Source: Bacteroidales bacterium
GTDB lineage: Bacteria; Bacteroidota; Bacteroidia; Bacteroidales; FEN-979
Direction: 5' to 3'
Assembly: GCA_030681475.1 (NCBI GenBank)
Contig: JAUXWT010000101.1
Span: 1-45,565, forward strand
Length of the DNA: 45,565 bases
Part shown: piece after piece, positions 3,521-36,595 of the stretch
How the letters are laid out: every line of letters starts with the position of its first letter
How positions within the stretch are numbered: position 1 is the stretch's first letter
Made by a program: the position numbers and the translations under genes
The notes under the pieces: model-generated
The model's input: the letters and a program-made list of their open reading frames with translations, nothing else
Databases searched by the model: none
Told to the model about the DNA's origin: nothing

Positions 3521-3861
3521 TTTTTTTTCTTAGTTTGGGTAAGGGGTCATATACGCGCCCAACCGCCCAACCGCCCAACAAAGGCATTAAAATAGTGTTA
3601 AATCATTGATAATGAAATACAATTGTTTTACTTGTGCCTGCCATGGAGCGTTGGGCTGATTTTCCCATCCCAACAGAGCCATAAAAACTTTGAACATGAT
3701 CCCAACCAATCCCAACAAGTCCCAACAAAAAAATATCATTCAAACGATAAGTAGAAAACATAAAATACTGATATATAAGATTATAATATTTTGTTATCAT
3801 GTTTGTTGGGCGGTTGGGCGGTTGGGCGCAACTTGGCTGTCAGGAATTTCCATGTGAATTT
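3521..3861. other. Origin-like intergenic region with CCCAAC repeats and AT-rich stretch
   Basis: No convincing gene lies here. CCCAAC occurs on the plus strand at 3558, 3566, 3574, 3669, 3701, 3711 and 3721, and GTTGGG at 3650, 3805, 3813 and 3821. Three of the copies (3701, 3711, 3721) are spaced exactly 10 bp apart. Between 3727 and 3802 the DNA is almost all A/T. Iterons plus an AT-rich element beside the primase-helicase gene resemble a phage or plasmid origin, but operator function for the structural operon is equally possible. Confidence 0.45.
3555..3829. repeat. 28-bp perfect inverted repeat made of 8-bp tandem units
   Basis: The left arm 3555-3582 and the right arm 3802-3829 are exact reverse complements, separated by 219 bases. 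Each arm contains three tandem copies of an octamer: CGCCCAAC at 3556-3579 and GTTGGGCG at 3805-3828. The GC-rich arms contrast sharply with the AT-rich centre. The repeat could extrude as a cruciform, form a long RNA hairpin, or mark recombination or replication protein sites. Confidence 0.9.
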
Positions 3862-6800
3862 TCAGAAAGGCATCTCTGTTTGCTCATTTTCCGTTTCTGC
3901 CAAAATAGCAGGTTCGGCTTTTTCCGCTGGAACCGGATCAGGTGTTTTAAACCTTTCAAGGTCGATTCCCATCGCCTCAATGATTTTATATTTAAGGGCA
4001 ATACAACTTGTGTTACGCTCGGCTTTTTCAATAATACGCTGATTGATCCCGCTCGACGGATCAGTTCTCCAGGATTCAACCTGGTATAGAAAACGATGGC
4101 TGTTTACCTGGCCAATATAGGCCGGATGATCTTTTAAGTACATCCGCAGGGCATTGATTTTTAAACTCTCTCCAGGGTGCATTTTCTGGTAAATTTGAAT
4201 CACATCGTTAACAATCAGGAACAACACAGGCCCTGGGCCGCCATCCATGGGGATAGTTTCCTTTTCCGTTTTGGATTTGATAATTGTTACACTGGACTCG
4301 GTGGAGATGTCAAACTCCCTTCCACTAATGATTTGTCCCTGCGCATACAACATGCTGATCGTATCGAAGAATACCGATAATCGGTTGCTGGTACTCAACT
4401 CTTCGCTTTGGCGGTTGATCTGCCGTTTGGCATCTTCATAAAACTCATCGTAGGTGAACGGGAGCGGAAGCTCCTTTACATGGTCAGTCCACATTTTGGC
4501 CATGGCAATAAACAAACTCACGGTATTGATAATACGCGTTTGATAAGTGCCGCCTTCCTTTTGAATATCGCTCTTTACCTGCTTCTGTGCATCACGCATG
4601 TATGCGGCAAAGTGCTTCTGCACGACCGGGCGATGTTTTATGATCTCCATTGCGATATTGCTCAGCCCGTCACGCTCGCGGTCTTTGAGGTCTTTATAAT
4701 TGACAACTTCTTCATTGGTCCAATCATCTTTTTTCGGAACATGCTTTTGAACTACCCGGTTGCCCAGGGCGCCATCGTCACGCTCTGGTCCTTCCTGACC
4801 CAACAAAAGAGGGCAGCCGTTTATTTTCGACACATCGATATCCTTGCTGGTAGCATCCTTGCGCTTCTGCTTCCCTTCATTGTCATACACCGCAGCCTTT
4901 AACCCCTGGAACTTTACATCAGAAATCTGGGCATCGTTATACTCGTCGAATATCACCGGGATATCGCGAAAACGTTCAAGGCTGGTAAAAAATGCAGCAT
5001 CTGTGCCAGAGTTCAGGTTGAACAGAGGTGCGCCATACATGAATGGCGCCCTGATACTTTCTGCAATTTTAGATTTGCCGGATTCGGTAGGCCCTATAAA
5101 AAACAGTGCGGTAAAAAAACGCTCGATCGGAAAGATAATACTGCGGTTGGCCGAAAGGATTGCAAATAAAAGCGCCCACATTCCATTATCATTATATGTG
5201 TATACTTTGTACATCAACTCCGACCATTCTATCCATGATGTTCGGTGATCCGGCTTGAAAACCAAGAACCGGTCATACTCATACCGGTCGTTGTCGGCAC
5301 GCTGATCCTTATATATTTTGCTGAATGCAGGAGAGTAGTAGGTTGAGTTTTTAAACTTTACAAGCCCGAGTTCATCAACATGGGTAAATGCATTACCTGT
5401 AATGATGCCATTTGCAAAAGCAAAGAACCCTTCAGGTTGCCATCCGAATGTCGAAAGTTCAATGGTTTTTGGGAATAGAAGGGCGATGCTTTCAAGAATT
5501 TTCTCATGATGAAACGGTTTACCATTGGTGAAGATATAGCCCCCGTTGTTCCACAGGAATTTTTTGAATTGCTGCAATTCAACCATGTCGCCGCTCTTGA
5601 ACTCAACGTATTCTGCCGTGTTAAGTTCGGAATGGAAAAGCTCTACAATTCGTTTATTCTTTATCGGATCGCTATCATATACCTGAAACAGGGGTTTCAT
5701 GAAGAAATTACCAACCTTTATCAGTGTGTTATCAAGCGTTCGGAATACGTAAAATATATTGTTGCCGGTTTTGTTTTGAGCAGCGAAGAACCCGTACCGC
5801 TGGAAAAAACCCTGATCGACATATTCAGGCAGGTGGGCGATATCGAAAACATATTGCTGTTCATCAATGATCACATGCTCCTGCCGCTGAATTGCAAGGC
5901 TTTTCCGTTTCTCAACAAACGGGCGTAAAACCTTGGAAAATGAAGCTTGGGTAAGCCCAAACTTTTTTGCAATCTCATTGGTTTTAATGTGGATAATAGT
6001 ATTGTCGAGTTTTGACAAGAATTCGGCGATCATCTCCACGAACTTTTTAGAGCGTTTTGTGTCGGGGTGTCGGAATAACTGATAGGTTAAGCCATTAACA
6101 TAAAAGTCCAAAAAATCGATGTAAACAACAGATTTGGGTTCTTCATCGGTCTCGTCTACAGAACAATCCTCTCGCACTTCAACACGCATTCCCTGCTCGG
6201 TGAGCATTCGTCCGGATTCGGCCAGTGGAGACTCAACATCCTTTTCATCAACAATAAGAGATAACCCTTCAATTTTGATATTCCTGGTCAGTTTGGCCAG
6301 GCGAAAAATATCATCTTTCTTCAGCGGGCCATCCGGCAGGCTGATGGTATTTTCTTTTCCTTCGGCATGGTATGTAACCACCATGGATGGGCCGGCAAGC
6401 AGGATTGCGCAGCCGGTTTCTGTAATCATTTCCTCGGAAGCCTCAAGAGCAAAGAATCCCTTTTCCGCTTTCTCAGGATTTGGAAGTTGTTTTTTGAGAT
6501 TCCGATTGAGGTCTTCCAATTTGACGTCAAGTTTTTTGGCAATGTCCCCGATCAGGTAACCGCGAGACTCTTCATCACCGATAAGGGATATCTGGGAAAC
6601 AAGTTCTTTGACCAGTTTGGCTTTTTGAATTGGATCTTTGTCAACGGCCTCCTGAACCATTTCGATGCGGAAGGAAACGATATCCTTCCGATTGTCTTCA
6701 ATGAAAGCTTTGAGGGTTTCTGCGCCATGTTTCAAGACATATGAATCCGGGTCATCGCCCTCGGGCAGTACAACCAGGTAAACATCAAGGCCCATCTGCA

Positions 6801-7755
6801 AGGGGATTTTGATATTGGCAATGCTGGCCTTGATCCCTGCCGGATCACCATCATAAACGATCGTCAGGCAATTTGTGAACGATTGTATCATCTTTATCTG
6901 ATCCTCGCTCAGTGCGGTCCCTGAACCGGCTACAACGTTCCTGATCCCTGCCAGGTGCCAACTGATCAGGTCAGTCTGGCCTTCTACCAGCAGGCATTCA
7001 TTATCCTTCATGATCTCTTTTTTGGACTGGAATAGTCCATACAGAAATTTGCTCTTTTTGAATACCTCAGTTTCGGCACTGTTTAGATATTTTGGCTTAT
7101 CCTTCTCAGCCGAAAGAAGCCTGCCGGTGAAACCGATCACCCTTCCGGAGCGGTCGAAAAAAGGGAATATAATCCGGCGAACAAAAGCATCGTAATAATG
7201 TCCCTGTTCGTTTTTTTTGATCAGACCGGCGCAGAGTAACAGATCATCTGAATAACCTGCCGTGTGGGCTGACTTCAACAGATCATTGCCAGATAAAGAA
7301 TATCCAATCCCGAATATCCCGATGGCTTTGTCAAGTTCACGCTTTTGAAGATATTCCAGGGCGGGAGCATTCTTGGGCAGGTTTTTGAAAAAATAATCCT
7401 GTGCCCATTTCAGGGTGGCAAAGATACCATCACGGTGTTTTTCGGTATCGCTGTACAGGGCATCAGATTCATTCGATTGAACAGGAATATTATAATGGCC
7501 GGCAATGTAGGTAAGTGCCTCGGTGTAGCTCATTGCTTCGTGCTCCTTGAGAAACTCAATGGCATCACCTGATCTGCCGCACCCGAAACATTTATATGAT
7601 CCCTTGGCAGGGTTCACCATGAAGCTGGGTGTTTTTTCAGTATGAAATGGGCAACAAGCAGTGTAGTTAACACCTTTTTTTTTCAGCGTGATAAAATCGC
7701 CAAGGATGTCAGCGATTTGAGTAGCAGCTTTTATTTCTTCTGAGTTCGATATCAT
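3862..7755 (-). CDS. Phage primase-helicase (CHC2 zinc finger, TOPRIM primase, P-loop helicase)
   Basis: This 1297-residue protein should prime and unwind phage DNA. It starts with a DnaG-type CHC2 zinc ribbon (C35, H38, C56, C59) and the DnaG core segment FPFFDRSGRVIGFTGR. A TOPRIM site follows, with Glu259 in VEGQTD and D302/D304 in YDGDPAG. A long middle region leads to an ATPase domain with Walker A GPTESGKSK near residue 886 and Walker B VIFDEYND near 933. The ATPase resembles phage/P4-like superfamily 3 helicases rather than DnaB. The C-terminal tail is Pro/Glu rich. It is much longer than host DnaG (about 600-650 residues) and ends beside the repeat region 3555-3829. I used the ATG at 7755; the next in-frame ATG lies well inside the zinc ribbon. 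Confidence 0.9.
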   Translation of the reverse strand: MISNSEEIKAATQIADILGDFITLKKKGVNYTACCPFHTEKTPSFMVNPAKGSYKCFGCGRSGDAIEFLKEHEAMSYTEALTYIAGHYNIPVQSNESDALYSDTEKHRDGIFATLKWAQDYFFKNLPKNAPALEYLQKRELDKAIGIFGIGYSLSGNDLLKSAHTAGYSDDLLLCAGLIKKNEQGHYYDAFVRRIIFPFFDRSGRVIGFTGRLLSAEKDKPKYLNSAETEVFKKSKFLYGLFQSKKEIMKDNECLLVEGQTDLISWHLAGIRNVVAGSGTALSEDQIKMIQSFTNCLTIVYDGDPAGIKASIANIKIPLQMGLDVYLVVLPEGDDPDSYVLKHGAETLKAFIEDNRKDIVSFRIEMVQEAVDKDPIQKAKLVKELVSQISLIGDEESRGYLIGDIAKKLDVKLEDLNRNLKKQLPNPEKAEKGFFALEASEEMITETGCAILLAGPSMVVTYHAEGKENTISLPDGPLKKDDIFRLAKLTRNIKIEGLSLIVDEKDVESPLAESGRMLTEQGMRVEVREDCSVDETDEEPKSVVYIDFLDFYVNGLTYQLFRHPDTKRSKKFVEMIAEFLSKLDNTIIHIKTNEIAKKFGLTQASFSKVLRPFVEKRKSLAIQRQEHVIIDEQQYVFDIAHLPEYVDQGFFQRYGFFAAQNKTGNNIFYVFRTLDNTLIKVGNFFMKPLFQVYDSDPIKNKRIVELFHSELNTAEYVEFKSGDMVELQQFKKFLWNNGGYIFTNGKPFHHEKILESIALLFPKTIELSTFGWQPEGFFAFANGIITGNAFTHVDELGLVKFKNSTYYSPAFSKIYKDQRADNDRYEYDRFLVFKPDHRTSWIEWSELMYKVYTYNDNGMWALLFAILSANRSIIFPIERFFTALFFIGPTESGKSKIAESIRAPFMYGAPLFNLNSGTDAAFFTSLERFRDIPVIFDEYNDAQISDVKFQGLKAAVYDNEGKQKRKDATSKDIDVSKINGCPLLLGQEGPERDDGALGNRVVQKHVPKKDDWTNEEVVNYKDLKDRERDGLSNIAMEIIKHRPVVQKHFAAYMRDAQKQVKSDIQKEGGTYQTRIINTVSLFIAMAKMWTDHVKELPLPFTYDEFYEDAKRQINRQSEELSTSNRLSVFFDTISMLYAQGQIISGREFDISTESSVTIIKSKTEKETIPMDGGPGPVLFLIVNDVIQIYQKMHPGESLKINALRMYLKDHPAYIGQVNSHRFLYQVESWRTDPSSGINQRIIEKAERNTSCIALKYKIIEAMGIDLERFKTPDPVPAEKAEPAILAETENEQTEMPF

Positions 7756-7896
7756 GCTGATTTCATTTTTTAGTGAGATTAGTTTATTGGTGATGGGGAA
7801 CTTTCATTAGATGTTGTACCTACCTACTTCCATCATAGATTTCTACTTGTAATCCGGGATGACTGATTTGATTTACTAACTGAGCAATATAGAATG

Positions 7897-8118
7897 TCAG
7901 TCAGAGGAATAGGTTTCTGCTCTAATGGCAGTTTGTAATTCTATGATTCGATCATAATACTTATCGGCTGCTGAATCGTCAAAACATAGTCCTGGCATCG
8001 GGTCATGATGTTGAACTTCAACCAGGCGTCCATAAAAGGCTATGGATTCGCTAAGATTAGCCAGGGCGATATCAATCAATGCAAGATCGGGCTTGGACAT
8101 ATTTGAGAATGTCTTCAT
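7897..8118 (-). CDS. Small hypothetical protein
   Basis: The 73-residue ORF begins MKTFSNMSKPDLALIDIALA and contains two likely helices (residues 9-32 and 53-68). It has no motif I recognise. It lies between the excisionase-like gene and the primase-helicase in the same direction, with normal codon use. It could be an accessory replication or regulatory protein of the element. Downstream, 7756-7896 holds no further gene I can support. Confidence 0.45.
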   Translation of the reverse strand: MKTFSNMSKPDLALIDIALANLSESIAFYGRLVEVQHHDPMPGLCFDDSAADKYYDRIIELQTAIRAETYSSD

Positions 8119-19816: not shown

Positions 19817-20619
19817 CACACAACGAAATATTTAACCGGCTTTGGATCGAATATACACATCAGAATCCGTTCACAAAAAAGGTATATGATCTGTTCATTA
19901 CCGAAGGAGAAAAGGTCATCAACGATCACATTGCCTTCCGTACCTTCCGGCATCCCTCAATCAATATCGATAAATTGTCAAGGGTCTTCGTTGAAAATGG
20001 TTATGAATACACTGGTGATTATCATTTTGAAGTGAAAAAATTATATGCCAAACATTTTGAACATCGAACCGAAAAGGAGGCGCCACGGGTATTCATCAGC
20101 GAACTGGTTACACCGGAGTTCAGTCCGTTTCTGCAGCAGACTGTGAACGACTGGATTGACAAGATCCCTGTCGGGCTGACCAACTCTGATGAACTGATCT
20201 ATGCCGGGAATACTTCCGGGATCCCATCATTTGCTACCTATGAAAAGTTGCGTTTGGAATCAGAATATGCAGCATGGCTTTATGTGAACGGTTTCTGTGC
20301 GAACCATTTTACTGTGAGTGTGAACCATTTACAGAAATCCGACACCCTCCAAAAAGTCAACACACTGTTAAAATCGAATGGGTTTATCCTGAATGATGCA
20401 GGAGGTGAGATCCAGGGAACTCCGGATGAGCTGCTTGAACAGTCAAGTATCCGGGCAGGGATGGTAAAATACACTTTTACCGAAGGAGAAAAAGAGATCC
20501 CAGGCTGCTATTATGAATTTGCGAAACGCTATCCTGACCGTGATGGGAAACTTTACAGCGGGTTCATTGCCAAATCGGCTGACAAGATATTCGAATCCAC
20601 AAATTTCTATACGAGGTGA
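19813..20619 (+). CDS. DUF1338 protein, 2-oxoadipate dioxygenase/decarboxylase (HglS)-like
   Basis: DUF1338 enzymes (HglS/YdcJ) are Fe(II)-dependent VOC-fold proteins; the Pseudomonas member converts 2-oxoadipate to D-2-hydroxyglutarate in lysine breakdown. Here the expected metal ligands appear to be His39 in NDHIAFRTF, His165 in CANHFTVSVNHL and Glu235 in GCYYEFAKR, with Arg43 as the substrate-binding Arg. The protein has 268 residues, much shorter than the roughly 450-residue proteobacterial enzyme, but this short form is usual in Bacteroidota. It overlaps the receiver gene by four bases and is followed after 25 bases by a dehydrogenase that could use its product. Assignment to the family is secure; the exact substrate is inferred. 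Confidence 0.8.
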   Translation: MTHNEIFNRLWIEYTHQNPFTKKVYDLFITEGEKVINDHIAFRTFRHPSINIDKLSRVFVENGYEYTGDYHFEVKKLYAKHFEHRTEKEAPRVFISELVTPEFSPFLQQTVNDWIDKIPVGLTNSDELIYAGNTSGIPSFATYEKLRLESEYAAWLYVNGFCANHFTVSVNHLQKSDTLQKVNTLLKSNGFILNDAGGEIQGTPDELLEQSSIRAGMVKYTFTEGEKEIPGCYYEFAKRYPDRDGKLYSGFIAKSADKIFESTNFYTR

Positions 20620-20644
20620 TATCCATATTCAAACAAACTTTCGG

Positions 20645-23641
20645 ATGCCCCCACCTTACCCAGAAAACATAAATCTTGCAGAATTACGGTCCGGTTTCGA
20701 CGGTGAAATTTACACGGATTATGCCCAGCGTCTGCTTTATGCAACCGATGCCTCCGCTTATCGCGAGATCCCGATGGGCGTTGCCCGTCCGAAAAATGCC
20801 TACGACATCAGGAAACTGATAAACTTCGCCAATGAACTAAAGGTACCGTTAATTCCACGTGCAGCCGGAACTTCGCTGGCCGGACAGGTGGTAGGTTCAG
20901 GATTGGTGGTGGATGTATCCCGCTATATGACAAAGATTCTTGAGATCAATACCGCTGCACATTGGGTTCGCGTAGAACCTGGCGTGATCCTGGATGAACT
21001 GAACAAAGAGGTTGAAAAATACGGTCTTTTCTTTGGTCCCGAAACCAGTACTTCCAGCCGTTGCATGATCGGTGGAATGGTCGGAAATAATTCATGCGGA
21101 GCGCATTCCATCCTCTATGGCAGCACACGCGACCACGTGATTTCAGTCAAAGGTTTCCTGAGCGATGGATCTGAAGTGGAATTCAAGGATCTTAAGGTAA
21201 GTGAATTCATTGAAAAATGTTCGGGACAAACCCTTGAGAACAATATCTACCGGCAAATCAATACGATCCTTTCCGATCCTGCTACTCAGGAGAACATCCG
21301 CAGGGAGTATCCCGATCCGTCAATCCACCGGAGGAATACCGGCTATGCACTTGATCTGCTACTTGAGACGGATCCCTTCATGCCTGGTCACCCGTTCACC
21401 CGTTCACCCGTTCACCCATTTAACTTATCCAAACTCATCTCAGGCTCCGAAGGTACCCTGTTGTTCATGACAGAGATCAAACTCAACCTGGTTCCGCTTC
21501 CTCCGAAAGAGAAAGCATTGATCTGCGTTCACTGCCATACCATCGCCGATGCGCTGAAGGCGAACCTTATAGCCCTGAAATACGAGCCAGGGTCGGTGGA
21601 ATTAATGGACAAGGCGATCATGGATTGCACCCGCGACAACATCACCCAGCGACAGAACCGGTTTTTCATTGAAGGCGACCCGGAAGCCATCCTGATTATT
21701 GAGTTTGCACGTGATACACAAGCTGAGATTATGGATATTTGTTTGCCACTCGAGGCAGAGATTCGTAAAGCAGGGCTGGGTTATCATTTTCCGGTCATAT
21801 TTCCACCGGATGTAAAAAAGGTATGGGACCTTCGAAAGGCTGGACTGGGGGTGCTTTCAAACTATCCCGGCGACCGCAAGCCGGTTCCTGTGATTGAAGA
21901 CACTGCGGTAAGTCCCGCTGCCCTCCCGGAATACATCCTGGAATTCAACCAGATGCTTTCGCGGCTGGATCTCGATTGTGTTTATTACGCTCATGTTGGT
22001 TCCGGGGAATTGCATCTCCGTCCGGTGCTCAACCTCAAAGACCCGGCGGATGTTGAACTCTTCTATACGGTTGCTCTCGAAACTGCCAAACTCGTAAAAA
22101 AATTCAATGGGTCACTTTCCGGCGAGCACGGCGATGGAAGGCTGCGCGGAGAATTTATCCCGCTGATGCTGGGCGAGAAAAACTACAAACTATTTAAGGA
22201 GATCAAGGATCTATGGGATCCAAATCATATTTTCAACCCCAACAAGATCGTTGATACGCCGAAGATGAATACAAGTCTTCGGTTCGAGCCGGGTAAACCC
22301 GTGCGTGATATTCCTACTGTATTTGACTTTTCAAAAAGCCATGGCATCCAGAGGGCTGCCGAGCAATGCAACGGCTCTGGCGACTGCCGCAATACTGTCC
22401 TTACCGGCAGGTATATGTGCCCGTCATACATGGCCGTGAAGGATGAAAATACCACGACCCGGGCACGCGCCAACATCCTCAGGGAGTTTCTTACCAATTC
22501 GACAAAATCGAATCCTTTTGACCACAAAGAGATTTACGAAGTGATGGATCTTTGTCTTTCATGCAAAGCATGCAAATCGGAATGTCCTTCAAATGTCGAT
22601 ATAGCTAAACTGAAGGCTGAATTCCTTCAACAATGGTACGATGCCAACGGAGTCCCGCTAAGGTCCCGGTTTATTGCAAACATCACCGGGATCAACCAAC
22701 TTGGAAGCATCGCTCCTGCCCTCTTTAATCTCTTTCTGAAAAACAATTTCACATCCGGGATTACGAAAAAAATTCTTGGATTTGCACCTGAACGAACTAT
22801 TCCTCTTCTGTATTCAACAACACTTCGTGCAGTGGCCGCTAAAAACCTTGCAAATGGTAAGCTTATCCCTCCGGCAACTGAATCAGCGACTCAGCCGCGA
22901 ACGGTCTATTTATTTGCCGATGAATTCACCAATTTCAATGATGTGGCGATCGGAATAAAAGCCATCAAACTCCTGAACGCACTCGGTTTCAACGTGATAA
23001 TCCCTGATCATGGAGAGAGTGGGCGAACATGGTTGTCGAAAGGTCTCATAAGGAAGGCAAAGTCCCTGGCAAATGATAATGTAAAGAAGTTAAAAGATAT
23101 CATCACTGACGATACACCCCTGATCGGCATTGAACCATCAGCTATTCTTACTTTCCGCGATGAATATCCCGAATTGGTGGATGCACAATTGAAAGAGGCT
23201 TCGGTAAATTTGGCCAGGAATGTTTTCATGTTTGATGAATTTATGGTACGGCATGATAATGTTCATCAGTTGTCAGGACGCTTTACAGTAAATCATTTGG
23301 AGGTAAAGCTGCATGGCCATTGCCATCAGAAAGCGCTTGCATCGGTTGAATCAACAAAAAAGATGCTGTCGATCCCCGTCAATTACAAGGTTGAGGAGAT
23401 CAAATCGGGTTGCTGCGGTATGGCCGGCTCATTTGGCTATGAGAAAGAACACTACGATGTATCAATGAAAGTCGGAGAACTCGTATTGTTTCCGGAAATT
23501 CGAAAGACAGCAAAAGAGGTAATCATCGCTGCTCCCGGAACATCCTGCCGCCACCAGATCATGGATGGCACCGGGAGGAAGGCGGTACATCCGGTTGAGG
23601 TGATGTATGAAGCCTTGTTAGGTAGCGAGGTAGCGAAGTAG
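20645..23641 (+). CDS. FAD-linked oxidase/Fe-S dehydrogenase (YdiJ-like D-2-hydroxyglutarate dehydrogenase)
   Basis: The 998-residue protein has an FAD_binding_4 domain (PLIPRAAGTSLAGQVVG), a FAD-oxidase C domain with the active-site run HVGSGELHLRPVLN and SGEHGDGRLRGEF, a [4Fe-4S] ferredoxin region (CLSCKACKSECPSN), and a C-terminal CCG-type domain (SGCCGMAGSFGYE). This matches YdiJ-type enzymes that oxidise D-2-hydroxyglutarate to 2-oxoglutarate and pass electrons to quinone or other carriers; D-lactate is the main alternative. I chose the ATG at 20645, just past the upstream stop; an earlier in-frame ATG at 20513 would overlap DUF1338 by 107 bases. Residues 248-259 and the last six residues are encoded by 8-bp tandem repeats. 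Confidence 0.85.
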   Translation: MPPPYPENINLAELRSGFDGEIYTDYAQRLLYATDASAYREIPMGVARPKNAYDIRKLINFANELKVPLIPRAAGTSLAGQVVGSGLVVDVSRYMTKILEINTAAHWVRVEPGVILDELNKEVEKYGLFFGPETSTSSRCMIGGMVGNNSCGAHSILYGSTRDHVISVKGFLSDGSEVEFKDLKVSEFIEKCSGQTLENNIYRQINTILSDPATQENIRREYPDPSIHRRNTGYALDLLLETDPFMPGHPFTRSPVHPFNLSKLISGSEGTLLFMTEIKLNLVPLPPKEKALICVHCHTIADALKANLIALKYEPGSVELMDKAIMDCTRDNITQRQNRFFIEGDPEAILIIEFARDTQAEIMDICLPLEAEIRKAGLGYHFPVIFPPDVKKVWDLRKAGLGVLSNYPGDRKPVPVIEDTAVSPAALPEYILEFNQMLSRLDLDCVYYAHVGSGELHLRPVLNLKDPADVELFYTVALETAKLVKKFNGSLSGEHGDGRLRGEFIPLMLGEKNYKLFKEIKDLWDPNHIFNPNKIVDTPKMNTSLRFEPGKPVRDIPTVFDFSKSHGIQRAAEQCNGSGDCRNTVLTGRYMCPSYMAVKDENTTTRARANILREFLTNSTKSNPFDHKEIYEVMDLCLSCKACKSECPSNVDIAKLKAEFLQQWYDANGVPLRSRFIANITGINQLGSIAPALFNLFLKNNFTSGITKKILGFAPERTIPLLYSTTLRAVAAKNLANGKLIPPATESATQPRTVYLFADEFTNFNDVAIGIKAIKLLNALGFNVIIPDHGESGRTWLSKGLIRKAKSLANDNVKKLKDIITDDTPLIGIEPSAILTFRDEYPELVDAQLKEASVNLARNVFMFDEFMVRHDNVHQLSGRFTVNHLEVKLHGHCHQKALASVESTKKMLSIPVNYKVEEIKSGCCGMAGSFGYEKEHYDVSMKVGELVLFPEIRKTAKEVIIAAPGTSCRHQIMDGTGRKAVHPVEVMYEALLGSEVAK
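21387..21418 (+). repeat. 8-bp tandem repeat (TTCACCCG) inside a coding sequence
   Basis: The units are GTCACCCG, TTCACCCG, TTCACCCG and TTCACCCA. They encode HPFTRSPVHPF within the dehydrogenase, just before the conserved NLSKLISGSEGTL segment. The unit length of 8 means the encoded peptide repeats only every 24 bases. Confidence 0.9.
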
Positions 23642-23653
23642 CGAGGGAGCGAA
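23622..23653 (+). repeat. 8-bp tandem repeat (GTAGCGAR) across a stop codon
   Basis: The units are GTAGCGAG, GTAGCGAA, GTAGCGAG and GGAGCGAA. The dehydrogenase stop TAG (23639-23641) lies in the third unit, so the array also encodes the C-terminal GSEVAK. Confidence 0.9.
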
Positions 23654-23662
23654 GTGTAGGGA

Positions 23663-26114: not shown

Positions 26115-26346
26115 GGCGGCAAACCACTCGGTATCTCCTCCGTGAATTCTCATTGGTTTTCCTCATTTTCTGTTTTCCGCACTTTTTGAGAAGGCACTCT
26201 GAGTCCCTGAATTTTTGTTGATGTCGGTTTTAAAAACTGGTGTCCCGATCAAATATTTGTGCATGTATTTTAAAGAAAAATGCCTGTACCCTACTTCATT
26301 GGTGCTATTTTCTGTGGTTGTTGCACAATAGAATTGTGTTTTGTTA

Positions 26347-26480
26347 CACGAAGTAAAAAGAAGGTCGCACGAAGTTACACGAAGAAAATTAAGATGTTAT
26401 GGAATTTGATCGGGTTCAAAAAAAATCATTGGCTTTTATAACCTTCGTGGATCTTCGTGAATTCTTCGTGGAGCTTCGTG
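26347..26480. repeat. Helically phased CACGAAG / CTTCGTG repeat cluster
   Basis: CACGAAG occurs at 26347, 26368 and 26378; after about 58 bases, CTTCGTG occurs at 26443, 26453, 26464 and 26474. Spacing within each group is 10, 11 or 21 bases. The two groups are inverted to each other and could form a large imperfect hairpin or a protein-binding array. Confidence 0.8.
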
Positions 26481-26548
26481 AAAGAAACTGAACAACATTT
26501 TATTGCCATACGGTCTCATTAGGGTGTCCCAATGCTGAAAACAGGAGT

Positions 26549-29600: not shown

Positions 29601-32437
29601 GCGCAAACGGTGCCCTCACCGGTGATTTTCGCGGTGGGTACCGGTTTCTCATAGATGAAAATATGATTCGAAGCATTGGTACACCCAAAAACATTGGAAA
29701 CAACCACCCAGTGATCACCATATTGATTCGCATTGTAAGTAGTGTTGGTTGCTCCTGAAATTAGTGTACCATCCCTATACCATTGATAGGAACTCTGCCC
29801 ACTGCATGCCGTAAGAATCACAAAACTACCGGGACAATACATCGTATCCGAGGCAGTGATTGTGCATGTTGGCGTTGGATTAACAGTAACCGGAAGCACT
29901 TTTGTAGCAACACAGGTTCCAAGCGTTGCCGTCAGTGTAACATTGTAAACACCAGCTAACAAATAAGTATTTTGCGTTGGTGATTGGAACGATGTGGAAC
30001 CATCGCCAAATGCCCATTGGTAAGTAAATCCGGGGTCAGATGTATTGGGCAGCACTTGTGTTGCCGTGAATGTAACCGGTTGGTTTTCGCATACCGGGTT
30101 TGGATTTATGGTAAAGTTTATCGCACAATTGATTGGGTTTGGCGGGTTTCCACCACCACCGCAGTTGCCGATGAGAACCTGGCAATTGGCTGACACAGAA
30201 CACAATCCGTTTGATACCACTACGGTATAAACGAATGAACCACCGGCCGGAGGATATGCTCCGGGGGTATAAGTGGCATTGGTTGCGCCAACGATGATCC
30301 CACCAGGCCCATACCACTGATATGTTGCATAAACATTGGGAACACTCAGGTTAAAACCAGCCGGTGGTAATGCCGGTAAACAATAAATAAACTGTCCGTT
30401 GCTGGCACTGATAACGGGTTTGACAGGGGGATTTAAAATTGTGACATTGACAGAGGCGGAACCACCACAATGAGATGCCATCACTGTTACCGTTGTTGGC
30501 GGTCCTTGCCAGCGGATATTTACACTGTTGGTGCCTTGTCCTGAGATGATTGAACCCCTGTTTCCGGGTGTTACAGTCCACTGTATTGGAGTAGGCCCGG
30601 TTGCAGAAAAGGTGGTTATTGCATCAACGCAAACAGAAGTGGGAACCGAAGGGGTAATTACAGGCGGTCCGTAAGCATTCACAACAAGGGTCTGTGGCAA
30701 GGATGAACAGAACACGCCCGGGCTGATCTCAATCTGTTGAACAACCTGGATGGTCCATGTCGGCCCTCCGGTTAGTTTAATGATCGCGGTACTTTGATCA
30801 GGGCCAAACTGGGTTTGAACCGTACCTGTTCCGGCCACAACTGACCAGGAAAATGGACTTCCGGTAGTGTTGGAGGTAATGGTGTATACTAAATTTTTTC
30901 CAGGGCAAACCAATGTAGGACCTGAAATTGGACCCAGAATAGGCACTGCAACCACTTTTACGATCTTAATGGCGTTCACATTACAATAAACACCGGCGAC
31001 AGTAGGAGTTGCTGTGATGATATAGGTTCCTGGAGTTGTCCAGGTGATTGTCTTGGAACTTGATGCTCCCGGAGGAACGATTGCAGTAGCCGGTGATACG
31101 CTCCAGGTGGCGTTTCCACCGCTGCCAAAATAGGTTTCAGAGGATCCCTGACATACAACCTCCGGTCCGAAAATTGAGAACACAGGAAGCACGTTGACCG
31201 TAAAAATACTGGATCCGCTGCATCCGGCCAGTGGATTGTTATAGTTACATTGAATCTGGTATGTTCCTGCCTGGTTGAAGGTCAAATTCACATTGGCCAC
31301 ATTCCTGTCTGCTTCATTAAAAGTATAAGAACCCGGTGGCGCCGTGGTGCTCCAATTGTAATAGGTGCCTGGCATGGAAGGCAGGAAAAAACTGCCCGAT
31401 GACCCTACACAAATCGGATTTGGTCCACTGATGGGCAGATTCGGGTATAAGACCGGGACGGGCAGGGTGGTCGTACCCGGACAAGGCGCTGCAGCACACC
31501 CGGGCACAGAAAGCGAAACTGTCGTCGGGACTGTATATATCAGATTCCACTTGACTTTAATGCAACTGGTCCCGGCGCCTGAGATAATGACTCCGCCCGT
31601 AACAGACCAGTTATATGTTCCGCAAATCTGTGATGTGCAAAAAGACGAGGTATCGCCCGGACATACCGTTCCGTGACAACAGGTCACATCAATGACAGGC
31701 CCGGAACCTGCAAGCACCTGGATGACCATTGAGGCAGTATCTGAACAGCCACAAGGAACTCTTTGGTCGGGAGTTTGCTTTGGAGGACCCATATCCGTCG
31801 CAGTCAGAATTACGGTGTAAAATCCAGGTAATGTATAAACATGCGGAGGCGGAGTTGCAGCCGTGGATGTGGTACCATCACCAAAATCCCACAGATAAGC
31901 GCCACCTCCTGTGGAAGTGTTTGTAAAATTCACAGGACTGCCGGCGCACACAGGGTTGGGAACCGCTGTAAAATTTGCTTGTGGGCCATCAACCAGACAT
32001 ATTTGCTGCGTAATTGAATCATGACAACCTCCACCATCAATCACAACAGTGATATATCCGGTAGAACCAGAACCCCATAAAATCGTTATTGGGTTGCTTG
32101 TGGCTGAAACAGGCGTTCCTCCTGTTATTGTCCAGGTATAGGTATATGGCGCGGTGTTGGGATAGACAGTATAGGTGTGTGCCGTTAATTTGCAGGCAGC
32201 TATCGCGTGTCCCTGACCACCAATTCCAGCAGTACCGCATGCATAATCGGATGTACAGATTTCAACTGCATCCTTCAACTTAAAATCTGGACAGCAAACC
32301 GGCTGTGCTATTGATTCATAGGCAATTAATGAGAACAGGAAGGTAAAAGACAGAATAAAAGCCCGATACACTTTTCCTGACATTAAATAAGACTCGAAAC
32401 CCAAATGGTTTCTGCCAATTGTATTTTTACGCTCCAT
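26657..32437 (-). CDS. Giant PKD/GEVED T9SS surface protein
   Basis: The 1926-residue protein starts with an extended basic segment and a signal peptide ending ESIAQ. A Cys-rich start (PVCCPDFKLKDAVEICTSDY) and many PKD/Ig-like repeats follow (AYLWDFGDGTTSTA; FTYQWAFGDGSTSFQ). Two GEVED domains come next (LDFGDAPDVPTNLLDYPTLL near 1205 and LDFGDAPDMPPVGFSYPTLL near 1375, each with DDEDGV and GEVEDY). After them come an Ig-like section, a 3-coathanger-stack-like domain (GGRAQLIAGQNIRMMPG) and a T9SS sorting domain (YKVYPNPTTGTF). It is probably an adhesin or extracellular matrix protein. I take the ATG at 32437 because a perfect AGGAGG lies 6 bases upstream; the ATG at 32383 would give a more ordinary signal peptide. 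Confidence 0.9.
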   Translation of the reverse strand: MERKNTIGRNHLGFESYLMSGKVYRAFILSFTFLFSLIAYESIAQPVCCPDFKLKDAVEICTSDYACGTAGIGGQGHAIAACKLTAHTYTVYPNTAPYTYTWTITGGTPVSATSNPITILWGSGSTGYITVVIDGGGCHDSITQQICLVDGPQANFTAVPNPVCAGSPVNFTNTSTGGGAYLWDFGDGTTSTAATPPPHVYTLPGFYTVILTATDMGPPKQTPDQRVPCGCSDTASMVIQVLAGSGPVIDVTCCHGTVCPGDTSSFCTSQICGTYNWSVTGGVIISGAGTSCIKVKWNLIYTVPTTVSLSVPGCAAAPCPGTTTLPVPVLYPNLPISGPNPICVGSSGSFFLPSMPGTYYNWSTTAPPGSYTFNEADRNVANVNLTFNQAGTYQIQCNYNNPLAGCSGSSIFTVNVLPVFSIFGPEVVCQGSSETYFGSGGNATWSVSPATAIVPPGASSSKTITWTTPGTYIITATPTVAGVYCNVNAIKIVKVVAVPILGPISGPTLVCPGKNLVYTITSNTTGSPFSWSVVAGTGTVQTQFGPDQSTAIIKLTGGPTWTIQVVQQIEISPGVFCSSLPQTLVVNAYGPPVITPSVPTSVCVDAITTFSATGPTPIQWTVTPGNRGSIISGQGTNSVNIRWQGPPTTVTVMASHCGGSASVNVTILNPPVKPVISASNGQFIYCLPALPPAGFNLSVPNVYATYQWYGPGGIIVGATNATYTPGAYPPAGGSFVYTVVVSNGLCSVSANCQVLIGNCGGGGNPPNPINCAINFTINPNPVCENQPVTFTATQVLPNTSDPGFTYQWAFGDGSTSFQSPTQNTYLLAGVYNVTLTATLGTCVATKVLPVTVNPTPTCTITASDTMYCPGSFVILTACSGQSSYQWYRDGTLISGATNTTYNANQYGDHWVVVSNVFGCTNASNHIFIYEKPVPTAKITGEGTVCAVPCSPVSFDLSAFYNPNYIYSWSSIPAGATFSPNNSNGAFYTNVNLTLPCTLPYTVRFIVKVTDIVTGCENRDTLCVTFYEIPDLTFSFQAGCEGTPYILTPLTPPANPSLYNYQWSNGKTTTSITVSVAGNYGLTITNKMTGCSATAFAAMIFPKPDLSLFPRGCDTICDTDTLRLYIPLPLNALPPFNTYPSAYPNITWYDNGNYGSPIGTGENLIFTTGVLGNHQISVVVQTAFGCLDTAGVFCLNVINCPPHLELDFGDAPDVPTNLLDYPTLLISNGARHSFVAGVNMGVLFDTELDGQPTIPADGDDILGVDDEDGVNIPAVVMIGTSLTINVQVSTNGFLDAWIDYNVDGDWADPGEHIFITQPVSAGANPFTFLIPATATIGQSYARFRFRTASTPISYDGLVADGEVEDYPVFLEECTQGEELDFGDAPDMPPVGFSYPTLLSSNGARHFLYSNIRMGALIDAETNGQPNTPALGDDWATSDDEDGVVFVGKMYVGLPATVQVTASITGFLNAWMDFNKDGDWADPGEQIFTNQPLAAGVNNLTFSIPTTALQGKTYTRFRFNTVGGLNYFGLAMNGEVEDYQVHACPYWWPIHTNIKHYITIPHDLPHLVPGDVLGVFYQDASGSRVCAGLSEFNGANDQLMIAYGDNPATQVKDGFVIGEPIYWKLCSIIKGDANPVDVIYDFTYPSYNGLFTPNGLSALTDIIGLQVTASAIPGTVCSGDAVDLHADVGGAEGVAFTWTSVPAGFSSFEQNPVDYPTVNTTYYVEAFDGVFNVSSSVAVTVTQVNPLVEILPLNNITIPAGQSNCYNATIRITTAGNGTTFVVQNGGRAQLIAGQNIRMMPGTRGMIGSWLKAKITTTGEFCCSTGLPPVQSAMSGELTGIRPANDKSFYKVYPNPTTGTFTLELSGPAETSKVSVEIYSIMGERILKKEMYGVKQQIFDLSGKLHGIYLIRIMNEEGEMGLTKIIKD

Positions 32438-32731
32438 ATAAATCCTCCTGTTGTTTAAACCGCCAAAGCGGTATTATTAAGATTAGGTTAATTTCTTCCG
32501 GCACAAGAAAGCGAAGCAAGTGATGGGGGTTGGTTTCATGTCAAGAAGTTGAAACATATAAAGATATTATTCAAATCATTGGCAAAGATATATTGATTTA
32601 GTCTAAATTGAATTTTTATTTAACATTTTTTAACTATGTTATTAATAAGTGAAAGACTACCTCACAAACGCGAAACAGCCTTACACTTGTTAATAACCAT
32701 GAAACACAATAACTCTGTGAGATTTAACCCA
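32438..32731. other. Intergenic, leader of the GEVED gene
   Basis: No gene is seen in this AT-rich spacer between two minus-strand surface-protein genes. TATCTTTG on the minus strand (32590-32583) matches the -7 element, but no TTG lies at the -33 position. CTCACA (32661) and TGTGAG (32716) form a loose inverted pair after the upstream gene. Confidence 0.35.
32444..32449 (-). promoter_or_regulatory. Strong Shine-Dalgarno site of the GEVED gene
   Basis: AGGAGG is read on the minus strand 6 bases before the ATG at 32437. Such sites are rare in this phylum, and this one decides the start. Confidence 0.7.
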
Positions 32732-35539
32732 TTATAATTTCACAAGTTTCACTGTTTCAGCATGGTTCCCGGTGATCACGTGAATGAAGTAAATACCGGC
32801 GTTCATGCCTTTTAGGGAGAACTCGTGCTTCCTTTCACCGCGCATTTTCATACTTTCAACACGGACACCGCTCATGTCAAATATCTCCACTGATGTGATC
32901 TCGGTCGGATCATTGACGGTAAGTTCAACAGTAAATGACTGGTGTGCCGGATTTGGATAAACCCTCACGAATGGAGTAGAACCAATCTCTTTAACAATCT
33001 CCTGCTCACCAGTCAGTGTTCCAGGATTTTCGAGCGGAGGCTGTGGAGGATCCGGGCAATATTGTCCGTTTTCAGTAATATAACCATGCAGAGTACCACC
33101 AGGTGAAACTGTTACACCTTCGTGAAAATGGATGGATTGTCCTGCAATCAGAGTTACATTTCCTCCTGGAGGCACAAGAAACGGGCCTTCGCCACCAACG
33201 ATGATAGTTCCTGTTGCATCAAAGCATTGGGGTTGGGATGGATCTATGATCATATTGCTAAGTAAAATGTCAGGAAGCACAGTCGGGCCACTTGCATGGA
33301 ATACTGTTGTCTCATTGTCATCAGGTGTCCACGCGCTCCCGCCATTGAAACTCAGTTCAGTCCAGATATCAAAAAAACTGTCTATTTGGAAGCCGCCTGG
33401 AACTTCCTTCATTCTAAGCAACCCGGTCGAAAGGGCAGTTGGGTCAATACTCTCCCTCAACATGACCCCAGGTGGCAAAGTACCACCCTGAAGTGATAGT
33501 GAGATAATCTCAGTTTCAAAATACATCAACCCGGCAGAATCAAGGGTGTGATCCACCCGCATTAACATCTGGCATGGAGCCGTGTTTTGCTGGAACGTCA
33601 GCCCAAAATCAACAGAGAAATCAAAGGTCGCCATACTCGTAAAAGGAAGAACTGTAAATGAACCGAGAGGTGGTGGTGGTACATTGTTACTATACCCGCC
33701 CAGTGATAAGTTCGTTATCTGGTATTGATCATCGCCATAAGATATCCTCGCATCCTGCACAATTTTATGGCTTGTTCCACCGGGTAAATTGTTGGTTGTT
33801 TGCTTGCTTTTTACTACCGGACATTCAACGATGAACATAACATTGTTGCTTGCCCCAACAGCTTTCGACAAGGCTCCTCCCCAGGTTGAGGTATTCTTAT
33901 TGTAGGTTGCATTTTCATCAACAGTACCCCCCGGTTGGGTCTGGTCCTTGTCATGGGTGATCACGAGGGAATATTTGCCATTGCCATGATCTGTAATCCC
34001 TGTGACTGCAACACAATGGCCTTTACCACCCCCGCCGATCCAGTCAACCATCAGTTCAACATCCTGTCCGTTCTTGATCTCCTTGGCAACATCACCGATT
34101 TGACTACCCTTGAATTTTCGGGTGGTGATGGGTAGTTTTTTTGCCTTACAATACTTTTTCTTGTTGCGGTAAATGGTATTTTTCACGGTTCCGTTTGCCG
34201 GTGTGGTACCAAAGGCATTGGCAAGCGCCGGGATCGAAATATCAGCTGGTTTCATTCCCAGCCCATTCTGTGCATTCAGCCATTGAAGCGAATTGGACAC
34301 ACCAGTCGGTACACAAAAATTTGGAGGACTCTCCTGGTTTGGAAAATTCTTATGCATTTTAGGGTTAGGATTCGCTGCCAGTCCACCTACTTGCGGTCCA
34401 GCAGGTCCTGGTCCTCCTCCCGGCCCACCTCCGACAAGCCCAGTGTTAATACGTACCCAATCCGCTGAAACAGGTGAAGTTGACAGATTTGACGGCTGGC
34501 CAAAGATGGTCGGTGTAATGGTAAGTGAATGTGTCAGCAAACTGACCGGAATACCTGAAGTACCGAGATCGAACCAAAACCGCTGGGTTTGCTGGATACC
34601 TGTTCCCCGTGTTGAAAGGACTGGCATATTTTGAATAGCCCATGTTGTGCCAATGGTAAGATTAAGATACATGATTTGATCAGTTCCTATGAAAGCAACA
34701 TCTGCAACACCCCATGCCGAATTAGTGGTAATCGTTCCATCATAACTGAAATTCAACTGCCTGAACTGGCTTACCGGGGGTTCAAACATCTCAAAAACAC
34801 ATTCAGCGCCCGAATCATCATCCCCGAATTCTACAAAAGTATCGGTGGGCTGACCTCTGAAACTCAATCCCCATACACCAGGACTGACCTCTGCCAGATT
34901 CACCTCTGTCAGTCCCCACGTGAGCAATTGAGTGCGGGCATTATTTAATATAGCGAAAGGCGACATTCCCGGCGTGGTCAGAACAGTAGCAACACAAGTC
35001 GAAGTTCCTATGTATATTTTTCCGGGTCCAGTTCCATTAACCGACACACCACTTGCCGATGAGGAACAAGTATAAAGTGGTGCAGTTGCTCCCCAGAACC
35101 AATCCCACCAGCCTGGTTGCAGGTCATCCTCGATCTTGTCTTTCTCACCTGTGGCATCGGGACCGAATTTAAAAAATACCCTTTGCCCGGGATGTACAGA
35201 ATTCAAAACCTCCACCTGGTCACCAGTTGCAGTCGCAGTAAAAACTCCTGCACAGGAGGCGTTTATTTTTGCCGCGATCAAAGTCGCTTTTTGAGCGGCA
35301 GTGGAGCCTGCAGGGATATTCACCTTGATTGGCGCACAATTATCGGTAAAGGATTTTAACCCTATGGTAAAAATGCCCCCTGCCGTCGGTGGCTGGCAGG
35401 TGAATGTGGAGCCGATCACGCTGCTGCTAAAAAACAACAATACCACGATGGCTATACACCCCTTTTTAAATCGATTTATAAACGGATGTCTGAGATTTCT
35501 GAAACAAGAAAACTCAATACTTTTAAATAAATTTTTCAT
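32732..35539 (-). CDS. T9SS surface protein with papain-like (C39-type) cysteine peptidase domain
   Basis: This 935-residue protein has a long basic N-terminus and a hydrophobic signal (CIAIVVLLFFSSSVIGS). A beta-rich N-terminal half follows, then a Gly/Pro linker (GGGPGGGPGPAGPQ, about 370-384) and a segment with the layout of a papain-like peptidase: Cys409 in NFCVPTGVSNSLQWLN, His508 in GKGHCVAVTGITDHG, and an acid in SLVITHDKDQ (D530/D532). A further beta domain, a 3-coathanger-stack-like domain (GGNVTLIAGQSIHFHEG) and a T9SS sorting domain (VRVYPNPAHQSF) complete it. It may be a secreted peptidase or a bacteriocin/peptide-processing enzyme; substrate unknown. AAAGGAGG sits 5 bases before the ATG. 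Confidence 0.8.
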   Translation of the reverse strand: MKNLFKSIEFSCFRNLRHPFINRFKKGCIAIVVLLFFSSSVIGSTFTCQPPTAGGIFTIGLKSFTDNCAPIKVNIPAGSTAAQKATLIAAKINASCAGVFTATATGDQVEVLNSVHPGQRVFFKFGPDATGEKDKIEDDLQPGWWDWFWGATAPLYTCSSSASGVSVNGTGPGKIYIGTSTCVATVLTTPGMSPFAILNNARTQLLTWGLTEVNLAEVSPGVWGLSFRGQPTDTFVEFGDDDSGAECVFEMFEPPVSQFRQLNFSYDGTITTNSAWGVADVAFIGTDQIMYLNLTIGTTWAIQNMPVLSTRGTGIQQTQRFWFDLGTSGIPVSLLTHSLTITPTIFGQPSNLSTSPVSADWVRINTGLVGGGPGGGPGPAGPQVGGLAANPNPKMHKNFPNQESPPNFCVPTGVSNSLQWLNAQNGLGMKPADISIPALANAFGTTPANGTVKNTIYRNKKKYCKAKKLPITTRKFKGSQIGDVAKEIKNGQDVELMVDWIGGGGKGHCVAVTGITDHGNGKYSLVITHDKDQTQPGGTVDENATYNKNTSTWGGALSKAVGASNNVMFIVECPVVKSKQTTNNLPGGTSHKIVQDARISYGDDQYQITNLSLGGYSNNVPPPPLGSFTVLPFTSMATFDFSVDFGLTFQQNTAPCQMLMRVDHTLDSAGLMYFETEIISLSLQGGTLPPGVMLRESIDPTALSTGLLRMKEVPGGFQIDSFFDIWTELSFNGGSAWTPDDNETTVFHASGPTVLPDILLSNMIIDPSQPQCFDATGTIIVGGEGPFLVPPGGNVTLIAGQSIHFHEGVTVSPGGTLHGYITENGQYCPDPPQPPLENPGTLTGEQEIVKEIGSTPFVRVYPNPAHQSFTVELTVNDPTEITSVEIFDMSGVRVESMKMRGERKHEFSLKGMNAGIYFIHVITGNHAETVKLVKL

Positions 35540-35544
35540 ATATT

Positions 35545-35552
35545 CCTCCTTT
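35545..35552 (-). promoter_or_regulatory. Strong Shine-Dalgarno site of the peptidase-domain protein
   Basis: AAAGGAGG on the minus strand, with 5 bases to the ATG at 35539. Very similar to the leader of the neighbouring GEVED gene. Confidence 0.7.
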
Positions 35553-35682
35553 GGTTGATTTTATATTGATTTAACATGCTGTATATCAAGTATATCATTT
35601 AAACCCCAATGATTGTATAATGAGTATGTTATTGCTAATTAATTATTATGGTATTTTATTACCTTTGTACCTGAATAGAAAA

Positions 35683-35713
35683 CAAATATACATTATATAT
35701 ATCTCAAGGGCAA
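35683..35713 (-). promoter_or_regulatory. Promoter of the peptidase-domain protein gene
   Basis: On the minus strand TTG (35713-35711) is followed after 20 bases by TATATTTG (35690-35683), the -33/-7 form of this phylum. The leader would be about 135 bases long. The region is divergent from the Crp/Fnr gene. Confidence 0.5.
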
Positions 35714-35782
35714 GGATCACTGGGAGATATATATCTGGGTTTATCAGGGAATATTTCTTCCTAAAGGCGGAAAAATAACTGA

Positions 35783-35815
35783 TTGTTTACGTAACAAAAT
35801 TTATTTATACCTTTG
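35783..35815 (+). promoter_or_regulatory. Possible promoter of the Crp/Fnr gene
   Basis: TTG (35783-35785) and TACCTTTG (35808-35815) are 22 bases apart, slightly wide for the consensus, and lie 40 bases before the ATG at 35856. A second TACCTTTG is at 35660-35667. Confidence 0.4.
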
Positions 35816-35855
35816 AAATGTCCTATTGAACCAGTTCAGCATTTTTACCAGCCAT

Positions 35856-36557
35856 ATGGATACGAATTGTCAAAATCCTGAAAGACATTGTATTGGATGC
35901 GAATTTAAGTCACCTTTATTCTACTTTTTAACCACCGATGAGCTCAACCTGGTTGAAAAAAACAAGATCACAGTCCATTTCAAAAAAGGTGAAACGATCC
36001 GTAAACAGGGTACCTATATGTCGCATGTGATCTCTGTGAATTCAGGGCTGGCAAAACTATATCTGGAAGGAATAGAACAACGCAATGCCATCATCCGGAT
36101 CGTTAAACCTACAAATTTCATTGGCGGACCGGGCATTTATCTTGATCAGCGACATCATTTCACCATTACGGCCCTGATGGACACGACAATTTGTTTTATC
36201 GATGTCGCAGTCTTCACTGATATTATTGACAAAAACAAAATCTTTGCCCATGAATTCATGAAAGATTTCAGTAAAAATATCCTGTCGGTTTATAACAGGC
36301 TGTTGATCCTCACACAAAAGCAGATGCCTGGCCGGATGGCTGATACGCTCCTTTACCTGTTCGATGAGATATTTGAATCAAATAGTTTCAGTATGCACCT
36401 TTCCAGGCAGGATATTTCAGAATTATCGGGGATGTCGAAAGATAGCGCCATAAAAATTTTGCGCGAATTTCAACACGATGGAATAATTCACCTCACTGAA
36501 AACCAAATGAAACTTCTTGATCCTGAAAAATTAAACATGATCAGCAAGACGGGATAG
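35856..36557 (+). CDS. Crp/Fnr family transcriptional regulator with N-terminal cysteines
   Basis: The 233-residue protein has an N-terminal cyclic-nucleotide-binding-like beta-roll (KITVHFKKGETIRKQGTYMSHVI, NFIGGPGIYLDQRHHFT), a dimer helix and a C-terminal HTH (MHLSRQDISELSGMSKDSAIKILREF). Before the roll lies a Cys set, C5, C12 and C15 (CX6CX2C), close to but not the same as the FNR iron-sulfur pattern. It may sense oxygen, NO or redox state. The beta-roll lacks an obvious cAMP-binding RxS motif. It is divergent from the peptidase-domain gene, a possible target. I use the ATG at 35856; a TTG at 35826 would add ten residues. Its stop touches an octamer array. Confidence 0.85.
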   Translation: MDTNCQNPERHCIGCEFKSPLFYFLTTDELNLVEKNKITVHFKKGETIRKQGTYMSHVISVNSGLAKLYLEGIEQRNAIIRIVKPTNFIGGPGIYLDQRHHFTITALMDTTICFIDVAVFTDIIDKNKIFAHEFMKDFSKNILSVYNRLLILTQKQMPGRMADTLLYLFDEIFESNSFSMHLSRQDISELSGMSKDSAIKILREFQHDGIIHLTENQMKLLDPEKLNMISKTG

Positions 36558-36595
36558 TTTCGCTATTTCACCATTTCACTATTTCACTATTTAAA
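36556..36595 (+). repeat. 8-bp tandem repeat (TATTTCAC) between convergent genes
   Basis: The units are AGTTTCGC, TATTTCAC, CATTTCAC, TATTTCAC and TATTTAAA. The array fills the whole gap between the Crp/Fnr and propeller-lipoprotein genes, and both stop codons (TAG at 36555-36557 plus; TAG at 36589-36587 minus) overlap its ends. Confidence 0.9.

Follow-up and report, generated by a model that had tools for sequence, protein, structure and literature searches.

Tandem arrays of 7- and 8-bp units in a lake Bacteroidales genome and their possible link to the inverted ends of IVP gene cassettes

The window analysed here, 45,565 nucleotides of contig JAUXWT010000101.1 in the assembly GCA_030681475.1 of a lake bacterium of the order Bacteroidales (lineage FEN-979), contains five short tandem arrays with 8-bp units. 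Arrays of this build, with units of 7 or 8 bp, are found across this genome and its relatives, and their link to an element of the mobile type is supported: they form the inverted ends of small cassettes that encode IVP, the 23S rRNA intervening sequence protein (also S23p; PF05635). On balance, we consider it probable that the arrays either are the ends of such cassettes or share their build without enclosing a gene, and that they grow and drift by slippage. We infer that the window arrays belong to this class; none of them carries an IVP gene.

Tandem arrays flank IVP genes

The IVP gene is present in 10 copies in the genome under study and in 1 to 22 copies in each of 43 genomes of the family. 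Complementary flanks within 220 bp were identified for 6 of the 10 own-genome copies and for 22 of 28 copies from the family (29 were fetched and one was excluded for a short flank), compared to 3 of 200 control open reading frames (ORFs), a set not purged of IVP genes. A tandem array on either side was found for 7 of the 10 and 26 of the 28 IVP genes, respectively, and for 21 of the 200 controls. The two arms match within a copy (score of at least 22) in 60% of the own-genome and 75% of the family copies, as against 4.4% and 9.8% of the pairs when arms of different copies are compared. The units at the IVP genes of the genome under study include AGGGTGAC, TAAGTTT, AAGGGGAC, TGATTTGA and AAGTGAC.

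A scan without preselection gave a consistent picture: flanks were complementary at a score of at least 24 in 8 of 1270 ORFs, four of which match PF05635 in Pfam, and the other four encode an aldo/keto reductase, an aconitase, a RecQ-type helicase and a PKD-domain protein. Two inverted array pairs, in loci L008 and L021, enclose an IVP gene. In the predicted RNA folds of two cassettes, the arrays form the closing stem and the gene lies in the loop (z of -10.6 and -7.7). The closest solved structures by sequence for the S23p protein are 2gsc and 2rld. One array of the window, at 21387, is tied to cassette ends by its sequence, because two congeners carry its unit, TTCACCCG, in tandem at their IVP loci L287 and L294.

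IVP cassettes in cyanobacterial plasmids

A protein search of plasmids returned 27 records, 26 of them cyanobacterial by name, of which 16 were fetched and 15 analysed. The flanks are more complementary than any of 60 shuffles for 10 of these 15 IVP genes, but not for the other five; a score of at least 20 is reached by 10 of the 15, compared to 3 of 48 other ORFs, two of which lie beside the cassette of L345. The flank units are mostly of 7 or 8 bp (AGGGTGT, AGTAGGG, AGGGAAC, GCAGAGGA, AAAAGCT). The 15 genes with annotated surroundings (one fetched record being without annotation) have protein genes on both sides and are not located in an rRNA gene, a verdict that rests on the neighbouring genes, the plasmid tables listing no RNA genes. 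The copies of L337 and L343 occupy the strand opposite to both neighbours.

Relatives without the IVP gene were found for five plasmid loci; one further candidate turned out to be filled. At three of these (L339, L336 and L337), five related plasmids from four strains lack the array, the gene and the inverted array together. The extra segments at the filled sites are 477-518 bp long, with edges at or within ~10 bp of the arrays, and the IVP-less sites hold 10-42 bp of other sequence instead. No target-site duplication was seen by eye at the five IVP-less sites; the inverted ends are present.

The reverse order of events, in which the arrays or their hairpins predate the gene and IVP genes insert into existing inverted arrays, would fit the gene-less inverted pairs ~20 bp apart in L116 (5471/5638) and L135 (18427/18480), as well as the IVP-less relative L358, where a heptamer array without a gene lies in the corresponding slot. 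Yet the five IVP-less relatives of the three filled sites (L352, L353, L355, L356 and L357) have no array by eye, and we regard this order as improbable.

The gap between cas6 and cas4 of type I-D CRISPR loci is the site of an IVP cassette in Anabaena 90 and in Pseudanabaena galeata (L340, L345). In Pseudanabaena ABRG5-3 it contains a heptamer array without a gene, and in Dolichospermum 273 bp of different sequence. The opposite-strand cassette of L337 separates nrdB from nrdA on a plasmid of Nostoc; the same gene pair of Calothrix NIES-4105 is without a cassette.

Arrays of the window

A sequence-only reading of this DNA had reported five arrays, all of which were recovered within a base or two by Tandem Repeats Finder (TRF) and in the sequence directly. 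They are listed here with the gene that hosts two of them:

3556-3579, plus strand: CGCCCAAC, three copies, left arm of an inverted array pair
3805-3828, minus strand: CGCCCAAC, three copies as reverse complement, right arm of the pair, separated from the left arm by 225 bp
20513-23641, plus strand: gene of an FAD-linked oxidase / Fe-S protein (Pfam FAD_binding_4, FAD-oxidase_C, Fer4_17)
21388-21417, plus strand: TCACCCGT, 3.8 copies (TRF), read as TTCACCCG, four copies, at 21387-21418; in frame inside the oxidase gene
23620-23652: AGGTAGCG, 4.1 copies (TRF, 88% match), in a GTAGCGAR array at 23620-23655, plus strand; equal to TTCGCTAC on the minus strand
36558-36592, plus strand: TTTCACTA, 4.4 copies (TRF, 88% match), in a TTTCRCYA array at 36556-36595

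The oxidase gene, an ORF of 1042 codons, holds one array in an internal loop (21387) and another at its 3' end (23620), with its TAG stop codon inside the latter. The 36556 array occupies the whole spacer between convergent Crp-type and DUF5074 genes. The claim that all copies lie in, or touch, gene ends does not hold, given that the 21388 array is internal to its ORF and the nearest long ORF is 282 bp away from 3556-3579 and 33 bp away from 3805-3828 (ORFs were called by length only). The claim that unit sequences change from place to place is correct insofar as several units occur, but three of the five arrays, namely 21387, 23622 in its minus-strand reading, and 36556, are variants of one degenerate octamer, TTCRCYNN. 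A scan of the window against Rfam at gathering scores gave no match to a known structured RNA.

Excess of periods 7 and 8

Period counts were obtained for the window and 20 further stretches of the same genome (393,449 bases). With a minimum of 2.75 copies, 12 exact arrays have period 7 and 11 have period 8, compared to 0-2 at each of the other periods from 2 to 20 and to 0-0.1 per period in Markov-shuffled sequence; when mismatches are allowed, there are 12 and 14 arrays, respectively, and none after shuffling. The peaks are sharp at 7, 8 and their multiples, and periods 5 and 6 are almost empty. Near relatives (26 loci, 492,791 bases) contribute 31 period-7 and 25 period-8 arrays, and more distant ones (54 loci, 870,506 bases) 8 and 1, with the cut placed at ~67% identity and one short locus, L094 (69%, 3,300 bases), counted as distant. 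The excess of arrays is real and far above chance, and the unit is 7 or 8 bp. The predicted excess at 8 bp over shuffled sequence is present, and arrays are numerous beyond the five sites, but the unit is not fixed at 8 bp: heptamers are as frequent, and a mechanism restricted to octamers was rejected for this reason. One-base conversion between 7-mers and 8-mers is not supported either, with 6 of 27 distinct 8-mers one deletion away from an observed 7-mer and a shuffled mean of 4.0 (83 of 500 shuffles reach the observed value); one orthologue pair resembles such a conversion (CCCGTCA in G017, CCCGTTCA in the window).

Plain slippage offers a different account, in which chance duplications grow by slipped-strand mispairing anywhere and IVP cassettes merely acquired some of the resulting microsatellites. 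The period of 7-8 would then come from the polymerase footprint, a hypothesis quoted for heptamers in PMC4692102, and from larger loops going unnoticed by mismatch repair, which according to PMC4060949 deals efficiently with loops of 1-3. A MutS_I match is present in 40 of the 43 family genomes, so that small loops should be corrected, in agreement with this account; for the same reason, loss of mismatch repair was rejected as the cause. Periods 5 and 6, however, should escape repair too, yet are nearly empty. This lends some weight to the earlier argument, by which slippage on its own should produce units of various lengths, but the copy number of a given unit does differ among close relatives (see below).

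Sharing of units among arrays likewise speaks against plain slippage. Units are shared by 12.0% of 7-mer pairs and 8.3% of 8-mer pairs, compared to 2.5% and 1.1% after letter shuffling (~5-fold and ~7-fold). For arrays of period 7 or 8 on different contigs, a unit (at most one mismatch) is common to 73 of 351 pairs within a genome and to 134 of 1137 pairs between genomes; a difference this large arose in 5 of 1000 label permutations. Slippage also leaves unexplained the matched inverted arms at IVP genes and the joint absence of arms and gene in relatives.

Three tandem copies of TTCRCYNN give 144+93 = 237 overlapping matches in the genome under study, as opposed to 2+1 for a reversed-pattern control. 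Among 60 genomes drawn across the order, this one included, 7 have matches and 53 have none; within the family, 38 of 43 genomes match, with 1 to 762 matches each, and the reversed control also matches in some of them, up to 50 times. The number of IVP copies is moderately correlated with that of octamer matches across the 43 genomes (Spearman 0.43, p 0.004, uncorrected for kinship). The reuse of units within a genome would also be compatible with a reverse transcriptase or another enzyme that, in the manner of telomerase, inserts copies of an 8-nt template at many sites, and RVT_1 (PF00078) is matched in 26 of the family genomes. It is unmatched in the other 17, however, including the octamer-richest one, G091 (762 matches; 97% complete, so a reverse transcriptase might have been missed); furthermore, reverse transcriptase counts do not follow octamer counts (Spearman 0.09, p 0.58), and many units, 7-mers among them, coexist in single genomes. 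We consider such a copying mechanism very improbable. The Y1 transposase was rejected as a driver as well (count against octamers, Spearman 0.20, p 0.20).

With respect to genes, 119 of 153 arrays are not fully contained within an ORF. A stop codon lies within 10 bp of 53 of these 119, compared to 23% of random non-coding placements, and actual overlap with a stop codon is barely raised (31 of 119 vs 18.9%). Among neighbouring arrays, related pairs are inverted in 11 cases and direct in 4, and 29 neighbour pairs are unrelated.

Changes of arrays at orthologous sites

The motifs that surround the internal loop of the oxidase are recognisable in 77 of 84 examined loci, 48 of which share one standard spacing. 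In 12 loci, including the window, the best period of the loop is 7, 8 or 14, matched by 0 of 300 shuffles; eight other rows show no such period. The orthologues have other 7- or 8-bp arrays, or none, in place of the TTCACCCG array of the window. The units read by eye include CGGGACA with its inverted partner, AAATGCA with TCAGTCAT, CTCATGG, ATTCAAC, CACCACGG and others. In L056 (3157-3380), as judged by eye, the loop holds an in-frame hairpin: a heptamer array comes first and its inverted partner second.

Only L062 and L129, with matched stretches 92-96% identical, have units in common at this loop, and in a second loop the same two loci carry the identical two units in unequal copy numbers. 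By this pair and the wider comparison of orthologues, copy number alters fast and units are swapped over longer spans: copy number shifts between close species, and units differ between more distant ones. At the 3' end of the oxidase gene, L073 and L124 carry the unit of the window, and the 36556 array is missing, by eye, from 6 of 6 aligned orthologous spacers.

A difference in copy number of the same unit between close relatives is what slippage microsatellites are expected to show, and L062 and L129 fit plain slippage in this respect. In view of the near-empty periods 5 and 6, the shared units and the matched arms at IVP genes, we regard that account as possible but unlikely.

The 3556/3805 cluster and a 10-bp relic

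The inverted pair at 3556/3805 may be a separate, iteron-like feature beside the primase of a mobile element. There is no IVP gene between its arms. Of the 31 CCCAAC matches of the window, 11 fall within 3558-3826 (269 bp), spaced 8 or 10 bp apart and distributed over the two strands:

3650-3729: further copies of CCCAAC between the arms, including the 10-bp ATCCCAACAA, three copies, at 3699-3729

The cluster lies beside genes for a large DnaG-type primase and an S49 peptidase, both part of a mobile-element-like block at positions 879-7755 of the window. An iteron- or operator-like role of the CCCAAC cluster within this block, proposed for the 3556/3805 pair only, agrees with the concentration of the motif beside these two genes and with the fact that CGCCCAAC in tandem (two copies) occurs nowhere else in the genome. 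A clustered core site beside a replication gene, as in iterons, is seen at 3556-3828. The period and the inverted layout also fit a gene-less pair like the others, and we consider the iteron-like role only slightly less probable than its opposite.

A further inverted pair in the window has 10-bp units:

26343-26384: array of the TTCGTG type, left arm of a relic
26443-26482: array of the CTTCGTGGAT type, inverted right arm of the same relic

The segment 26166-26556 belongs to a dispersed repeat, also present in L211-L216, the fuller copies of which hold a piece of a GxxExxY (PF13366) gene. Among the copies or pieces of PF13366 in this genome, 6 of 10 have complementary flanks and 4 of 10 a strong array on either side, and some of the flanks are built of TTCGTG-type units. 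PF13366 is a second gene family with a layout resembling that of the IVP cassettes; it has complementary flanks in common with them and differs in the 10-bp units, the protein and the smaller share of strong arrays.

Another tandem array of the window, at 40457-40718, has a 12-bp coding unit (AEPVAEPV-type repeats) and lies near the start of a gene named by eye as ribosomal S1-like.

Comparison with known systems

The intervening sequences of rRNA genes that contain an S23p ORF share with the cassettes the PF05635 protein family and inverted ends which, according to the predicted folds, can pair into a stem that encloses the ORF. Their stem layout and excision by RNase III, as well as one intervening sequence with three tandem heptamers just upstream of the S23p gene, varying in number between strains, are described in PMC4990558. 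The plasmid cassettes differ in that they sit between protein genes and that their stem consists of tandem arrays with a copy-private unit. The window arrays lack a PF05635 gene, and only 3556/3805 forms an inverted 8-bp pair, which is gene-less.

The heptamer repeats of cyanobacteria bear the name STRR (Mazel 1990). Those of cyanobacteria and Xanthomonas (GGGAATC, GGGGAYT) resemble the present arrays in being short, tandem, dispersed, mostly intergenic, near stop codons and in some cases paired in inverted orientation, according to PMC4692102; the proximity to stop codons is found here as well (see above). In contrast to those repeats, units of both 7 and 8 bp occur here, with many units per genome and 8-bp units in all five window arrays, and units such as TTTCGCTA have no G-run, so that quadruplex formation is not general. 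For the heptamers of Xanthomonas and Nostoc, the same source generally found no association with mobile elements; the terms S23, four helix and intervening sequence are absent from its text, and no literature search was aimed at a link between IVP and arrays. The heptamer-built P6b stem of the Nostoc tRNA-Leu intron offers a parallel, since heptamers of one class have repeatedly given way to those of another at an orthologous site (PMC4476775), but it involves two unit classes in an intron, whereas the oxidase shows many units in a protein gene.

Discussion

Several observations weigh against the interpretation of the arrays as cassette ends or their gene-less counterparts. None of the 10 PF05635 matches of the genome is located on the window contig. 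Arrays, at a density of 56-165 per Mb in six sampled genomes, far outnumber the IVP genes, and most have no gene, which is compatible with plain slippage; because IVP genes are so much fewer, most arrays may be independent microsatellites. G091, which has the most octamer matches, encodes only 4 IVP genes, and G007, which has none, encodes 7. Only 2 of the 11 inverted pairs, a part of which was inspected for content, are known to hold an IVP gene; the inverted pairs inspected in L010, L116 and L183 enclose other genes, and between the arms of one in L008 lies an ORF that matches nothing in Pfam. Conversely, the own-genome IVP copies L263 and L266 are without arrays, and L264 has a single arm. 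In other Bacteroidota, a strong array is present at only 5 of 30 IVP genes, and complementary flanks at 14 of 30. The IVP-less sites within the family are too diverged for exact borders (of three BLAST candidates, two were inspected, neither base-exact), and in the plasmid relatives L358 and L359, the slot taken by the cassette in L345 and L340 contains other sequence, which in L358 includes the different, gene-less heptamer array.

Even so, the cassette interpretation is the one we favour. In its clearest complete form, the element is ~0.5 kb long: an IVP/S23p (PF05635) gene, which encodes a four-helix bundle, has an array on one side and the reverse complement of this array on the other, and the two ends of a cassette copy have in common a unit that is private to it. 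The array, the gene and the inverted array are jointly present or jointly absent between host genes, as seen at the three cyanobacterial plasmid sites. In RNA, the two arrays are predicted to pair as a long stem whose loop contains the gene, a layout known from rRNA intervening sequences. Later, the arrays would change copy number and drift base by base, with the period of 7 or 8 kept. Gene-less arrays, including those of the window, would be gene-less ends or copies of the same type of element, multiplied by slippage. The cassettes would accordingly behave as intervening sequences and move, and the gene-less arrays would descend from them or use their machinery. The shared mechanism suggested at the outset survives in this form, as a link to a mobile-type element, and not as a reverse transcriptase or an 8-nt template.

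A consequence for the host is that arrays remodel proteins: one loop of a conserved oxidase holds quite different repeat-built inserts across species. A broader proposal, tentative and rather unlikely in our estimate, is that the short tandem 7- and 8-mer repeats of several phyla are traces left by a single class of intervening sequences, small and mobile, which encode S23p. Each cassette would keep its two ends the same even though the unit changes between copies, and the ring formed by S23p would act on the periodic stem, set the period of 7-8 bp and move gene-less arrays in trans. If this is true, the origin of heptamer-type repeats and the nature of the S23p intervening sequences would become one testable system, for which the cassette offers a fixed layout, borders readable against IVP-less relatives, the unusual rule of the private unit and, for the protein family, solved structures.

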